A stretch of DNA of 64,000 bases, from the NCBI GenBank assembly GCA_020054475.1, contig JAHWGJ010000006.1, forward strand, positions 1 to 64,000, given 5' to 3'. Below, one piece after another: positions 22,913-46,101 of the stretch (within the stretch, counting starts at the first letter, position 1; the number at the start of each line of letters is the position of its first letter). The stretch is from Thermoplasmata archaeon (GTDB lineage: Archaea > Thermoplasmatota > E2 > DHVEG-1). The position numbers and the translations under genes are program-made. The notes beneath the pieces are model-generated. The model worked only from the letters and a program-made list of their open reading frames with translations. It was not told where the DNA came from and made no database searches.

Positions 22913-23875
22913 GTGAAGGGAACCAAAAAATCAATTCATAAAAAAACCATATTTAATGTAATAAACATTCAAAATAATAAAATAAAAAAATATTATTTTT
23001 TGATAATTGGTCTTCCAATTGTATTTTGGGCTTTTGCATTTCCACTTATTAAAATCGGTCTTAATGAATTACATCCAATAAATCTAACTATTTTAAGAAT
23101 GTTTATAGCATGCCTCTCTTTTTTATTAATAATAATTTTTAAACCTATTAAAATTACAAAATTAAATATCAAAGACATTCCTAATTTGTTTTTTTTAGGA
23201 TTTTTTGGAGTAATATGTTATCATTTTGCTTTGAATTATGGTGAACAGTATATATCTGCAGGTGTAGCAAGTTTAATTATTACAACTATTCCGATTTTTA
23301 TTGTTGTTTTAGCTTTTATATTTCTTTCTGAAAAAATTACATTTAACCTCTTTTTAGGTATATTGTTGTCATTAATTGGTATTATCATCATTTCATTATT
23401 TGGAAACACCGACATTAATTTAGAAATTAGATACATATTAGCAGCAGGAGCTGTTCTATTTGCAGCCTTTTTTGGAGCTTTTTATACTGTAGTTGGTAAA
23501 AAATTACTTAAAAAATATTCACCTTTATCACTTACTATATATGCAATATTATTAGGATCTTTAGGGATGATACCGTTTATTAATACTTCTCTTTTTGAAG
23601 AAATAACAAAATTATCTTGGATTGGTTGGCTAGCTGTTATATTTCTAGCAATATTTCCAACGGTTATCAGTTATGTTTTATGGTATGTAGCTTTAGATTT
23701 CAAACCTGCATCAGAACTAGGTATATATCTTTATTTAATGCCAATTTTATCCACAATTCTATCATTTTTCTTATTAAGTGAAAAGATTACAATATTATTT
23801 ATTTTTGGAGGTTTCTTAATAATTCTAGGTCTAGTAATTGTCAACAAAAAACCGATAAAAATAAGAAAAAAATGA
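22913..23875 (+). CDS. EamA/DMT family transporter
   Basis: Two EamA repeats, about 10 TM segments. Confidence 0.88.
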   Translation: MKGTKKSIHKKTIFNVINIQNNKIKKYYFLIIGLPIVFWAFAFPLIKIGLNELHPINLTILRMFIACLSFLLIIIFKPIKITKLNIKDIPNLFFLGFFGVICYHFALNYGEQYISAGVASLIITTIPIFIVVLAFIFLSEKITFNLFLGILLSLIGIIIISLFGNTDINLEIRYILAAGAVLFAAFFGAFYTVVGKKLLKKYSPLSLTIYAILLGSLGMIPFINTSLFEEITKLSWIGWLAVIFLAIFPTVISYVLWYVALDFKPASELGIYLYLMPILSTILSFFLLSEKITILFIFGGFLIILGLVIVNKKPIKIRKK

Positions 23876-23940
23876 AATATTACTTGTCATCTTAATGATA
23901 AAATAACATAAATAATAAATCATTACAGATAAATCATTAT

Positions 23941-24025
23941 GCAGGGGTAGCCAAGCCAGGTCAACGGCGACAGACTCAAGATCTGTTCCTGCAGAGGTTC
24001 AGGAGTTCGAATCTCCTCCCCTGCA
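23941..24025 (+). tRNA. tRNA-Leu (anticodon CAA)
   Basis: GCAGGGG/CCCCTGC acceptor, ACAGA-CTCAAGA-TCTGT anticodon arm, extended variable arm, AGGAG-TTCGAAT-CTCCT T-arm; no encoded CCA. Confidence 0.95.
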
Positions 24026-24358
24026 TATCTAAGTTTTCAACAGGAGAAAAACCATGAATTTTTTTCATTTCACATTGTTGTGGTTAAAATAAGTGATTTA
24101 AACCATAAAACTTTGTAAATCGACGTTGGAATCCTAAATCAGCGTTCAAAAAAGGTTAATAAAAAATTGAATTTTTTACGGTATTTTTAATCAACGAGAC
24201 TATCAGTCAGCAGGTTAAAAACAACTACATTCCATCATAATCAGCAAGTAATAATGCTACTACGAACATTTTGAATTATATAAAAAAATATTTGCATGAG
24301 AACATTTAATAAATAAATAAACATTTTAATTATCTAATCCAAAAGGGAGGATAAAATT

Positions 24359-26617
24359 ATGGAGGGCGAAAATCAGTTAATAACCGAGCTTAAATCAAAA
24401 ATAAAAGAATTGAAACAAAGGAATAATAATTTGGAATCGTCAATACTAAATAATAATACTCTTATCGATAATTTACCAAGCCTGCTCATTTTGATTGATA
24501 CAGAAGGTAAAATATATGCCATTAACAAAACAATGGCAAAAAGTTTAAAAGGAGAAAAAGAAAATCTTATAGGTAAAAATATTTTAGAATATTTTCCCTC
24601 AGAAGTAGCCAAATATAGAACAAAAATGGCTAACAAAGTCATTAATTCTAAGAAACCGATTTTTTTTGAAGATAAGCGCGATGATAGGTGGTTTAAAACA
24701 AGCATTTTTCCAGTCTTTGACCCCAAAGGTAATGTAACCAAAATAACAAATATGGTAGAGGAAATTACCAAACAAAAAGAAAAATTAAATGAAAGTGAAG
24801 AAAAATTTCAGATGCTTTCAGACCAATCCTTAATGGGTTTAGGAATCATTCAAACGGGACAAATCAAATACGCAAATGATGCAATTATTCAGATAACAGG
24901 ATATTCAAAAGATGATATGTTTAAGGAGGGGGGCAAAATTTTAACAAAAATAATTCATCCTGAGTATTTATCATTTGCTCAGGAACAATTGCAGAAAAAA
25001 CTAGCTGGAGATAAAGATGCTATTGCCAGATATTCTTGTAAGATAATATCCAAAACTGGTGAGATAAAGTGGGTTGAAGTCTTTTCAAAAACAATACATT
25101 ATGAAGGGAAAAATGCAGATTTTATTACCTTTGTAGACATTACTGATACAAAAAAAGCAGAGGAAATTGTTAGGATAAATGAAGAAAAATGGCGGTCACT
25201 AGTAGAAAATGCACCTGACATAATAACCCATATTGATTCTAAAGGTATAGTCACATATGTTAACCATCTTCCAAAAGACAAAAAATTAAAAAATTTTAAC
25301 CCTATTGGAAAAAAATTTATTAATTTAATACCGAAAGAGCACCATACTCTGGTTGAAAACACATATAGGCGTGTTTTGAAAACTGGAAAATCAGAAAGCT
25401 TTGAAGTTCAGGGTTTAATTTCAGATAGATGGTTAAATACAAATGTTGGTGCAATATTTGATAATGGAACTCCAATTGGTTTAACAACAATCACCCGTGA
25501 TATTACTATTCAGAAAAATGCAGAGTTAAATATCCAAAGAGGAAAAAATCACTTACAAAATATTATTGACAGTACATCTGAGATCATATTTACAATAGGA
25601 AATGATAACAAGATAAAAACCTGGAATAAAACAGCAGAGCAAATAACAGGGTATAAAAAAAAGCATGTTGTTGGTAAATCTATTAAAAAAGTAGAATTAT
25701 TTGAATATCCAAGTGAAATTGAAGAACATATAACAGCTATTCAGAACGAAAAAACTACAATTCTTAATGAAATCTCAATAAATACAATATATGGAATAAC
25801 AAGAATATTTTCTGTATCACCCTCATATATAACTGACGAATCAAACAATATCATAGAAATTCTATTTGTCTGCAGGGATATTACTAAAGAAAAAGAAACA
25901 TTTGGTAAAATACAATCAGGTAATAGTTATCTCATCCTAGAATCGGATAATAACGCAGTAATTGAAATATTCAATTTCCTGCTCAAATCTAAAAAACTGG
26001 GGTTATATATAGGTAGAATACCAAACAAAGAACTACAAACTAGTTTCAAAAAGAACATTCCTTCGATCATAAAATTAACCGAGGAAAAAGATGATCAATA
26101 CCCAACTTCTAATAATATAGAAGAAGTATATAAAAAAATAAAGGATTTCATAAAAAATAAGAATAACACCGTGATAATAATTGACCGTATGGATTATCTT
26201 ATAACAAACTATTCATTTGAATCAGTAATGAAGACTCTTTATAAAATTAATGATCTGATACAAAAACAAGATTCTATATTATTACTACGTGTGAATCCTT
26301 CAATCATAAATCAAAGTCAAATAGCGATACTAAATGAGGATTTTAAAAAACTTCCATCACAAAAAATCTCAGACATCCAAATAAGTCAAGAACAATATGA
26401 GATACTAATCCACATTCAAAATGAAATCAATAATAATATTTTGGTAACATATGGAAATATTGGAAAAACATTTTCAATATCTAAAGTTACAGCTAAAAAA
26501 AGATTAGAATCATTAAAATATAGTGGATTGATTTATTCAAGAAAACAGGGAAAATCAAAAATACTTAATATTACTGAAAAAGGGAAAAATCTACTTAAAC
26601 ATAAAAAAATAATCTAA
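24359..26617 (+). CDS. Multi-PAS sensor protein with DUF835 and C-terminal winged helix
   Basis: Several PAS modules (IDTEGKIYAINKTMAKSLKGE; IGNDNKIKTWNKTAEQITGY), DUF835-like NTVIIIDRMDYLITNYSFESVMKTLYKINDLIQKQDSILLLRVNP, wHTH end. Confidence 0.85.
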   Translation: MEGENQLITELKSKIKELKQRNNNLESSILNNNTLIDNLPSLLILIDTEGKIYAINKTMAKSLKGEKENLIGKNILEYFPSEVAKYRTKMANKVINSKKPIFFEDKRDDRWFKTSIFPVFDPKGNVTKITNMVEEITKQKEKLNESEEKFQMLSDQSLMGLGIIQTGQIKYANDAIIQITGYSKDDMFKEGGKILTKIIHPEYLSFAQEQLQKKLAGDKDAIARYSCKIISKTGEIKWVEVFSKTIHYEGKNADFITFVDITDTKKAEEIVRINEEKWRSLVENAPDIITHIDSKGIVTYVNHLPKDKKLKNFNPIGKKFINLIPKEHHTLVENTYRRVLKTGKSESFEVQGLISDRWLNTNVGAIFDNGTPIGLTTITRDITIQKNAELNIQRGKNHLQNIIDSTSEIIFTIGNDNKIKTWNKTAEQITGYKKKHVVGKSIKKVELFEYPSEIEEHITAIQNEKTTILNEISINTIYGITRIFSVSPSYITDESNNIIEILFVCRDITKEKETFGKIQSGNSYLILESDNNAVIEIFNFLLKSKKLGLYIGRIPNKELQTSFKKNIPSIIKLTEEKDDQYPTSNNIEEVYKKIKDFIKNKNNTVIIIDRMDYLITNYSFESVMKTLYKINDLIQKQDSILLLRVNPSIINQSQIAILNEDFKKLPSQKISDIQISQEQYEILIHIQNEINNNILVTYGNIGKTFSISKVTAKKRLESLKYSGLIYSRKQGKSKILNITEKGKNLLKHKKII

Positions 26618-26734
26618 TTATAATACTGTCTTTTCCTTTTTGTCTCTCAGGAGGCTTTAAAACAAAGTTTTTTGTTATGAATGATGAAAATTAAAAAACC
26701 TAAATTGAAAATTTTGTTAAATCCCATATCTCAG

Positions 26735-26747
26735 CCTGTTCAACAGG
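26735..26747. repeat. Palindrome CCTGTTCAACAGG near the right end of the tRNA-associated insertion
   Basis: Perfect 6-bp arms around a single C. Confidence 0.6.
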
Positions 26748-26879
26748 TATAAATTTAACAAAAAATTAAATTGTAATTTAAACTTTATTACCAGTAAATC
26801 CGTGTTAATATCTCCTCCCCTGCACCTTTTAATGAAAGAACAATCCTATTTAATTTTTTAAAAAAAGCATATAAATTAT

Positions 26880-28658
26880 TTAATTAACAATTAGTTTTTC
26901 AACTATTTTATAGGCGTTTATTAAATGATTAAAACCAATTTCATATTCAGAATTATTAATATATTCCTCTGCAATATAGTATTCTTGCATTCCTTCTTCA
27001 CTGTATATCCCCAAAATATTTGCTAAGTCAAATCTTGATTCACAAACATTAAAAGCTATTTCAATTATATTATTGATAATCGAAATAGTATTATTTAATT
27101 CTAATAGATTTAAAACTGTATCTTTCATATTTTTTAATGAATTAGAATAATTCGAATCCCAATTTTTTTCAACTAAATTAATACACAATTCTTTTTCATT
27201 TTGATGAATTTGATTATCAAGCTGAAACCAGATTTTCTCAGTTAAATAAGCTTGTTTTTGAGCATTTATATCAAAAATCGTTAAAAAATTTGATAGTATT
27301 TCTTTTTCTTTAATTAGATTTATAGCAATGTTTTCAATAATTTCATTTTCATATAAAAAAACATTCTCAATTTTATTAAAACAATAAAGATTATTATAAC
27401 CATATATTTTGAAGAGATTCTGACAAAGTTGAGCAGCTTCACCATTTTCGAAAGGATCAAATATATCATTGTCACTAATATGAAAGGGTATAAAAATTGA
27501 AGAACATGCGAAGCTGGGGGAAAACCAACCCATACTAAGTAGCTCATAATTGTTATTTGGTATTTTATAAATTGCTACTGCCTCATTTTCGTAGTTTCCC
27601 TCACACATACCTCTTAAACCATCTAAATCCGTAGATTGAAGTCTTGACCAGTTAATCATATCTCTAACATTTATCTTTCCATATCTAGAGTTTATATTCT
27701 CTAGCATTTTATCTTCCCATGCTTTAAATTTGTTGGTTAATTCAACGGATACAGTATTATTATTGATATCGAGCACTTTTAAACTGAAATCTCCAACATT
27801 TTTTCTTTCACTCATATTTATTTCAATTTTTTCTCCAACATATAAAAAAGTCCAAAAATTTATTTTAAAAACCGGTATTTGTCTTGCTACGATTGAAGAT
27901 TCCTTAATATCTAAAATTTTTACGCCATATAAGGAATTTAATCGAATAATATCTCCAACTTTATAATTATCAGTTATGGTTAAGTTAAATGATTTTGAAA
28001 TAGGAAGTTTTTTTTGTATTTGTGACTCCCAAAGTTCCTTTGGATAATTGGACATTACTCCAACATCATTTTTTAACTCCTTGATTTTATAATTAAAAGC
28101 ATCAGCTTCAATTATATACCCCTTATCTGGTCCAAGAATGAATAGATTCTCAGATACTCCTGTAGCATGATACTTATTTATAACATCTTCAGTTAATAAT
28201 AAAACTGCTTCATCAATATTATCTGCTTTTTCACATGAGTATCTAATCCAATCAAAATCATCCCATGCATATCTACTTGGATTTATCCAATTTGAATTTG
28301 TATCCGCATCCCCAAAAGCCAATCCTTTATCAGTAAGCGTCATTCCAGCTTTTACAATGTTGGGGATAACATCGTCTTTTGAGGCAACACCAATATATTT
28401 ATTCTCAACCTTAAAATAAATTTTTTCACCGGTCCAGGGATGATAAAATTCATATTGATAATTCTGAGGCACAATGTTCAAGACTTGAAGCCCCGGTCTA
28501 CTTGGATCCCTAACTTTTAAGAGTAGATTATAATCTCCGGATGTTGAATCACCACAGGCTATAATATCTTTACATCCTAAAACTGGAGTAGATATAAAAA
28601 TAGGTAAACAAAAAATTATAATTATTATTATTATAATATTTTTTCTACAAATTTTCAT
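26880..28658 (-). CDS. Secreted Ntn-hydrolase, C45/C69 peptidase-like
   Basis: Signal peptide followed by CKDIIACGDSTSGDYNLLLKVRD; NLFILGPDKGYIIEA. Confidence 0.65.
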   Translation of the reverse strand: MKICRKNIIIIIIIIFCLPIFISTPVLGCKDIIACGDSTSGDYNLLLKVRDPSRPGLQVLNIVPQNYQYEFYHPWTGEKIYFKVENKYIGVASKDDVIPNIVKAGMTLTDKGLAFGDADTNSNWINPSRYAWDDFDWIRYSCEKADNIDEAVLLLTEDVINKYHATGVSENLFILGPDKGYIIEADAFNYKIKELKNDVGVMSNYPKELWESQIQKKLPISKSFNLTITDNYKVGDIIRLNSLYGVKILDIKESSIVARQIPVFKINFWTFLYVGEKIEINMSERKNVGDFSLKVLDINNNTVSVELTNKFKAWEDKMLENINSRYGKINVRDMINWSRLQSTDLDGLRGMCEGNYENEAVAIYKIPNNNYELLSMGWFSPSFACSSIFIPFHISDNDIFDPFENGEAAQLCQNLFKIYGYNNLYCFNKIENVFLYENEIIENIAINLIKEKEILSNFLTIFDINAQKQAYLTEKIWFQLDNQIHQNEKELCINLVEKNWDSNYSNSLKNMKDTVLNLLELNNTISIINNIIEIAFNVCESRFDLANILGIYSEEGMQEYYIAEEYINNSEYEIGFNHLINAYKIVEKLIVN

Positions 28659-44847: not shown

Positions 44848-46101
44848 ATGTTTAAAATGCAAAATGACATAAGATTACAGTTTCTTGGCGGTAGTAATAA
44901 AGTTGGTAGCTTATCGCTTATGCTAGATACAAATGGAACAAGAGTATTATTTGATTATGGGATGACTCCAAGTAAACCACCAACATTTCCAATGCAACCT
45001 CCACCTGTAGATCATATGTTTTTAAGCCATTCTCATTTGGATCATTCAGGAATGACACCTTATATCTGTTCGAGAGACAATCAAAAAATTCATTCAACAA
45101 AACTTACATCTGAAATATCATATTTACTTCATAAGGATTCTATTAAAATTGCGAAAATGGAAGGTTACGCCCCATTATATAATATGAATGATGTTAAACA
45201 AACAAAAACAAATGTTATTCCTGTTGAACCAACTAAAAAAAAATTTTTAAATAACGACCATGAAATTCGCTTTCATTCTGCAGGACATATTCCCGGGTCT
45301 CTCATGTTTGAAATGGTGGGATCAAGAAATTTTTTATTTACAGGGGATTTCAATATTCAAGATACCAACTTAGTTAAAGCCACTAAACCAATCAAATGTG
45401 ATATTTTATGTATGGAGGGTACTTATGCTGGGAGAGATCATCCAAAAAAAAGAGAAGAATTGGAAAAAGAGCTGATAGACAAAATTGAAGAAGTTATTAT
45501 GCGAGGGGGATTAGCAATTTTACCTGCTTTTGCAGTTTCCAGGTCACAAGAGCTCGTTCTAATTTTAAAAAATTCAGGATTCAATATTTGGTATGATGGA
45601 ATGGGTAGAAAAGTATCAGAAATTTTTTTAAAATACCCAAAATATCTGCGATCTGAAAAAAATCTTAGAGATGCACTAAACAGAATTCATTTCGTGCATT
45701 CAGAAAAAGGACGGAAAACAGCCTTAAAATCTGATGTAATTATAACATCTAGCGGAATGATGGATGGCGGACCAGTTTTAAGTTATATGAATAAATTAAA
45801 AAATGATGTAAAAAGTTCAGTGATTTTAACAGGATATCAGATAAAAGGTACTAATAGTAGATTATTAATAGAAAAGAAAAAATTAGATTTTTATGGAGTT
45901 ATTGAAAAAGTTGCATGTGATGTAGAATATTTTGATTTTTCAGGGCATGCTGGACATTCGGAATTAATTGAATTTGCAAAGAATTGCAATCCAGAAAAAA
46001 TTGTATTAATGCATAGTGATAATAGAGAAGCTCTTATAAAACCATTAAGGGAATTTGCTGATGTTTTTACACCTAATGATGGTGAGATTTTAGATTTATA
46101 A
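44848..46101 (+). CDS. MBL-fold beta-CASP ribonuclease
   Basis: FLSHSHLDHSGMTPYI, LPAFAVSRSQELVLIL, SSGMMDGGPVLSY. Confidence 0.93.
   Translation: MFKMQNDIRLQFLGGSNKVGSLSLMLDTNGTRVLFDYGMTPSKPPTFPMQPPPVDHMFLSHSHLDHSGMTPYICSRDNQKIHSTKLTSEISYLLHKDSIKIAKMEGYAPLYNMNDVKQTKTNVIPVEPTKKKFLNNDHEIRFHSAGHIPGSLMFEMVGSRNFLFTGDFNIQDTNLVKATKPIKCDILCMEGTYAGRDHPKKREELEKELIDKIEEVIMRGGLAILPAFAVSRSQELVLILKNSGFNIWYDGMGRKVSEIFLKYPKYLRSEKNLRDALNRIHFVHSEKGRKTALKSDVIITSSGMMDGGPVLSYMNKLKNDVKSSVILTGYQIKGTNSRLLIEKKKLDFYGVIEKVACDVEYFDFSGHAGHSELIEFAKNCNPEKIVLMHSDNREALIKPLREFADVFTPNDGEILDL

Follow-up and report, generated by a model that had tools for sequence, protein, structure and literature searches.

A probable one-gene integrative cassette at the 3' end of tRNA-Leu(CAA) in a Thermoplasmata archaeon

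The stretch of DNA analyzed here (the window; 64,000 nt of a Thermoplasmata archaeon, contig JAHWGJ010000006.1 of assembly GCA_020054475.1) carries an insertion directly behind an intact tRNA-Leu gene. This segment is probably a 2.8-kb integrative cassette with a single gene, which entered the 3' end of tRNA-Leu(CAA) by site-specific integration. Two-ended units of the same format recur in other genera of the family, and the best reading of these units is that they are small, recombinase-less cassettes which mimic the tRNA-Leu 3' end and rely for their mobilization on a tyrosine recombinase acting in trans.

An occupied tRNA-Leu site and its cargo

The target tRNA-Leu(CAA) gene lies on the forward strand at 23941..24025 (ARAGORN 23940-24026; mature bounds from the acceptor stem), and its final 15 nt (ATCTCCTCCCCTGCA; 24011..24025, +) form the left, or attL, core. 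Sequence comparison places an exact second copy, the right or attR core, at 26810..26824 (+), where CCTTTT comes next, just as it does behind the tRNA in relatives with an uninterrupted flank; identity between the two copies spans these 15 nt and extends no further in either direction. The unit measures 2,799 bp from repeat to repeat. Under a first-order Markov model the 15-mer is expected by chance 4e-7 times per 3 kb and 5e-4 times in the whole metagenome-assembled genome (MAG; G000, 1.68 Mb in 46 contigs, 72% complete). Within the 1,676,491 bp of this genome the two copies are the only exact ones, and the only two copies with one mismatch are another tRNA-Leu on contig C42 and a non-tRNA site on C44. 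A first-pass annotation of the window had taken the recurrence of the last 15 nt of the tRNA as the footprint of tRNA-targeted integration, to be checked by counting further copies of the 15-mer; the recurrence is exact, the 15-mer is not frequent, and the footprint is borne out by the duplicated core, the intact tRNA and an empty site in a syntenic relative. A tRNA 3' end that is duplicated at the far end while the tRNA itself is kept intact is characteristic of the tRNA-targeted integrative elements and genomic islands known in archaea and bacteria (Islander, PMC4383910; archaeal tyrosine recombinases, PMC8371274).

The genes on either side allow the locus to be followed through related genomes. 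On the left, an EamA gene (22913..23875, +) is syntenic in G001, G016, G013, G022 and G031; on the right, a gene for a 592-aa protein with no Pfam match (26880..28658, -) is syntenic in G001, G016 and G031. The empty site that the first-pass annotation had suggested seeking in sister genomes is found in G016, where synteny is uninterrupted and EamA, tRNA-Leu, ~154 nt, the 592-aa gene, ThiI and ApbA follow one another cleanly, with the tRNA ending at 321 and the 592-aa gene at ~475. G001 (JAJISJ01, Ca. Thermoplasmatota), a sister species whose flanking-gene product is 83% identical, also has an occupied tRNA-Leu site, with other cargo bounded by the same terminal sequences: the left end (C24) carries the P' arm and A site described below, and the right end (C81, L163) carries the core and B repeat beside a gene whose C-terminus is NPWIFRLIQRFPILEYLL followed by the stop, with no PAS gene there; both G001 contigs break within the insert, and the comparison covers its ends only. 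The window segment is thus shown to be an insertion behind tRNA-Leu.

The cargo gene (24359..26617, +) encodes a 752-aa sensor-regulator in which a domain search identified several PAS domains, DUF835 and, at the C-terminus, a winged helix (wHTH). The first-pass annotation had named this as the only sizeable gene of the insert and had seen no recombinase there; both statements hold, with 0 of the 13 tyrosine-recombinase matches of the MAG falling within the insert. No second copy of the PAS gene was found in the 0.4 Mb of its genome examined. A defense role for the PAS protein was considered and rejected, as its PADLOC matches (CARF3, Csa3) are weak and confined to the wHTH region. Three further repeats within the insert are dispersed through the genome: repeat C (TATTTTTAATCAACGAGACTATCAGTCAGCAGGTTAAAAACAAC; 24156..24227, +), which also occurs on C44, C25, C6 and C31 of the same MAG; repeat A (ATCATAATCAGCAAGTAATAATGCTAC; 24231..24263, +), a dispersed, unidirectional intergenic site; and repeat B (TTTTGTCTCTCAGGAGGCTTTAAAACAAAGTTTTTTGTTATGAATGAT; 26638..26685, +), with ~20 copies in the MAG and a further occurrence at the right insert end of sister species G001.

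The attachment site and its recurrence across the family

The 15-bp att-like duplication of the first-pass annotation is real, and is merely the core of an attachment site of ~130 bp in total, composed of a P arm, the 15-nt core and a P' arm. The P' arm (24026..24114, +) stands directly 3' of the tRNA, contains CAACAGGAGAAAAACC and GGTTAAAATAAGTGATTTAAACC motifs, and is matched at 24018-24114 with 102 bits by model R1, which was built from the core end and P' arm. The P arm (TTTATTACCAGTAAATCCGTGTTAAT; 26784..26809, +) precedes the right core. Across the family this second arm is of two types: TTTTTACCGGTAAAA..GTTCAAATC, seen before the right core in G032, G029, G004 and G006, of which the window sequence is a drifted variant (ACCAGT vs ACCGGT), or TTTRAACTTGAAGTCNAANTC, which together with the core gave 27 matches in 10 of 44 genomes (reversed control pattern, 0). 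When the 204 nt 3' of the tRNA were used as a query without any tRNA sequence, the first ~95 nt were recovered in other genera, and nearly all of the best matches to this arm directly follow a tRNA-Leu-like 3' end, which in some cases is a real tRNA-Leu gene. The aligned P' arm reads CTCATATGGTTYCAACAGGAGAAAAACCAT.ATTTTT...TTGTGGTTAAAAAAAGAGATTTAAACC and shows no compensatory base pairing, for which reason we read it as putative protein-binding DNA. The last part of the arm (GAGATTTRAACC) is the reverse complement of a tRNA-Leu T-arm (GGTTYAAATCTC), and the site may accordingly be read as carrying inverted T-arm motifs. Elsewhere in the MAG, TGCAGGGGAAGGGATTT at L041:1210-1260 (C25) is the reverse complement of a tRNA-Leu 3' end of other genera; a C repeat and an ACCGGT palindrome lie nearby. 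An uninterrupted series of B, core, arm, C and A is present between two genes on C44 of the same genome (44994-45533; L035:14994-15533), not in a tRNA, with the arm-core-arm site at 45240-45410; this is the arrangement predicted if the two ends of the window unit were joined.

That the arm adjoins tRNA in several genera would also be expected if the sequence behind the tRNA were nothing more than a conserved trailer of tRNA-Leu or a small RNA, the second 15-mer then being an incidental tRNA fragment. However, most relatives have no arm, and in most insert-free genomes CTTTTT, CCTTTT or similar stands directly behind the tRNA; copies of the arm also stand at a distance from any tRNA, 3' of a tRNA-Leu-like core; and the empty site of G016, with the 592-aa gene directly downstream, contradicts a trailer. 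We consider this explanation extremely improbable, and a conserved trailer or RNA structure was rejected on the flanks of the relatives and the lack of compensatory pairing.

Model R1 returned 38 matches in 16 of the 45 family genomes and none in seven genomes of two other families of the order. Its sites abut tRNA-Leu of three isoacceptors: CAA in the window, G012, G068, G002 and G001; CAG in G032; and GAG in G012, G068 and G067. The cores follow the target, with CTCGTCCCCTGCA or CACGTCCCCTGCA at GAG sites and CCCTTCCCCTGCA at the CAA and CAG sites of other genera. Since ~8 nt of tRNA-like core are part of the model, and its 19 strongest matches include 11 training sequences, the association with tRNAs is partly built in; among strong matches outside the training set, three of eight abut tRNA-Leu. 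Ten of the 19 strongest sites have no tRNA-Leu overlapping them or immediately upstream (e.g. C44, G002, G012:C56), and the tRNA is therefore not the sole home of the arm.

Besides the 2.8-kb window unit with its PAS/DUF835/wHTH sensor, two-ended units comprise one of 2.3 kb in G032 with a single PKD-domain gene, one of 1.75 kb in G012 (C92) with a single PF02458 acyltransferase, and tandem units in G029, where 1.2 kb with a methyltransferase is followed by 4.6 kb with two genes. A similar unit in G002, away from tRNAs, holds an HTH_10 regulator and a large transporter-like protein, and G006 has cargo-free ends (L197:5652-5733) in which tRNA-Leu(CAA) and both arms are present and the second core lies 73 bp away. 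Each two-ended unit seen with cargo contains one intact gene or two, and the genes differ in kind from unit to unit; none of these units includes a fragment of an integrase, replication or capsid gene, nor any packaging or other helper-dependence gene.

Several cargo proteins, some of them PKD-bearing, share a C-terminal motif (e.g. NPWxxRLxxRFPILxxLL followed by the stop; L089:14648-15172, the right end of L163, L191:958-2904 and L190:5441-6856), which is perhaps a sorting signal. A related 131-aa protein (MKTVGYLEGTD...) stands beside a tRNA-Leu-mimic core at L285:5237-5632 (G005) and L295:5211-5606 (G068).

Each unit could instead be the deletion remnant of a larger tRNA-Leu-targeting plasmid, virus or island with its own integrase, of which the ends and one gene are left. 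Tandem integration and integrase loss after integration are documented for archaeal elements (PMC8371274), the arms have the length and conservation of a genuine attP, G006 retains just the two ends, and drift is seen in the right arm of the window's unit. Such an origin is nevertheless unlikely in our judgment: the two-ended units carry intact, unrelated genes and none of the fragments that a parent would leave, the tandem units have intact inner junctions, and no parent element was found among the 45 family genomes, although these MAGs are incomplete (72% for G000), such that a helper or an intact parent may be absent from them. The one-gene format, the intact unrelated cargo and the intact tandem junctions appear to favor cassettes over relics. 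The first-pass annotation had offered a minimal element, a decayed one and a satellite mobilized in trans side by side; the minimal or trans reading gains support, and decay becomes less likely because the one- or two-gene format, with conserved arms and intact unrelated cargo, is repeated in tandem, in other genera and at other isoacceptors.

Dispersed repeats and the integron question

Repeats of the A and B types stand 3' of many small genes across the MAG. Repeat A (ATCATAATCAGCAAGTAATAATGCTACAAA) has 58 copies with ≤3 mismatches in the 374 kb examined and 0 in shuffled sequence, with one orientation per locus; at 35 of 55 assessable sites, the first gene boundary met upstream belongs to a same-strand gene and is its 3' end. 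The 64-kb window holds one A site, inside the insert. Same-orientation sites separated by single genes were found for the A repeats only, an arrangement that is not proof of an integron by itself; it looks like a cassette array, and we do not file it as an integron.

The ~33-bp repeat forms unidirectional intergenic series on C34, C44, C38, C26, C31, C2 and C25 of the MAG (L089, L035, L090-L097), frequently placed immediately 3' of a gene for a small secreted or membrane protein, directly behind its stop codon, and close copies are also present in G004, G006, G001 and G019. The same gene for a ~100-aa membrane protein is accompanied by an A site at L123:1188-1505 (G006) and L089:6242-6585 (C34 of the MAG), in two genera and among different neighbors.

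These repeats raise the possibility of an integron-like cassette system, in which a gene lies between an upstream A site and a downstream B site and the tRNA-Leu core arrived within a composite cassette site. The number and uniform orientation of the A sites accord with such a system, as do the order gene, B, core, arm, C, A, gene on C44 and the presence of one gene (..VGIASIILGILGLILYFIG..SVETGYY followed by the stop) with an A site in both G006 and C34 of the MAG, next to different genes. We nonetheless give it a low probability. No integron integrase was found, the best of the six recombinases tested (of 13 in the 72%-complete MAG) reaching 73 bits vs the TIGR02249 cut-off of 265; the A sites fold weakly (z ~ -0.6), lack GTTRRRY-type ends and match no Rfam family; and close A copies occur in just 4 of 60 relatives' genera, in contrast to the family-wide distribution of the tRNA-Leu arm. 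A canonical integron was rejected on these grounds, namely IntI scores below the cut-off in the six tested, missing attC ends and strong hairpins, no covariation in the arm, and no Rfam match.

Recombination in trans and relation to known systems

For the cassettes that we prefer to these alternatives, a tyrosine recombinase would carry out recombination between the tRNA-Leu 3' end and the 15-nt core of the arm-core-arm site, and the exchange of cores would restore the tRNA. The donor would presumably be a circle with one joined site, and tandem units would arise by repeated insertion at the same tRNA. The enzyme would act in trans, given that none is encoded in any unit examined, whether in the window or in relatives. 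The genome-wide search for a tyrosine recombinase that the first-pass annotation had proposed gave matches in all 13 genomes searched (the MAG and 12 relatives); those of the 12 relatives also lie outside the units, the nearest (G032:C101:11418) being ~8 kb away on the opposite side of the tRNA. Model R1 found nothing above noise in the flanks of all 13 PF00589 matches of the MAG. Action in trans is thus reached by exclusion, because no recombinase is linked to the sites. Several tyrosine recombinases of the MAG (L110-L115) have a C-terminal zinc-ribbon-like CxxC..CxxC motif and are candidates for the trans-acting enzyme. Three exact-pattern scans of IMG/VR viral contigs gave no match to the site.

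The units share with tRNA-targeted elements (PMC4383910, PMC8371274) the duplicated tRNA 3'-end core, the restored tRNA, the empty site and tandem occupation. They differ in having one or two genes, in lacking an integrase within the element in the window and in every relative's unit seen, and in long conserved arms that are common to three tRNA-Leu isoacceptors. Integrons and CALINs are known in Archaea (PMC9668308) and likewise have integrase-less single-gene units, tandem arrangement and cargo exchange, and the A repeats are similarly unidirectional and usually 3' of a gene. Unlike integrons and CALINs, the units land at the 3' end of tRNA-Leu, their arm has no conserved hairpin, and neither IntI nor an attC consensus was found. 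Tycheposons use tRNA genes. As small cargo units presumably dependent on helpers, the cassettes would resemble tycheposons and other integrase-less hitcher or satellite elements (PMC11389934), but they occur in another host group, are much smaller, and no helper phage, capsid, replication or integrase genes were found in them.

Searches of the open-access literature turned up no account of one-gene units in Thermoplasmatota that share a tRNA-Leu-mimicking site, and the evidence suggests that these small gene cassettes, which have no integration enzyme of their own, form a family not described before. More tentatively, they may form a tRNA-anchored gene-cassette system, in which single genes with a ~130-bp tRNA-Leu-mimic site insert, are exchanged and stack at several anticodons by means of a recombinase encoded elsewhere, filling the role of an integron without integron integrase or attC. 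Such a system is open to testing, given its clear attachment arms, the empty site and the swap of cargo between the sister species. If true, archaea would have an integron-like route for gaining and swapping genes through single-gene units that stack behind a tRNA, and, as the cargo includes secreted PKD proteins, sensors and enzymes, this route would bring niche-specific genes to uncultured Thermoplasmatota.
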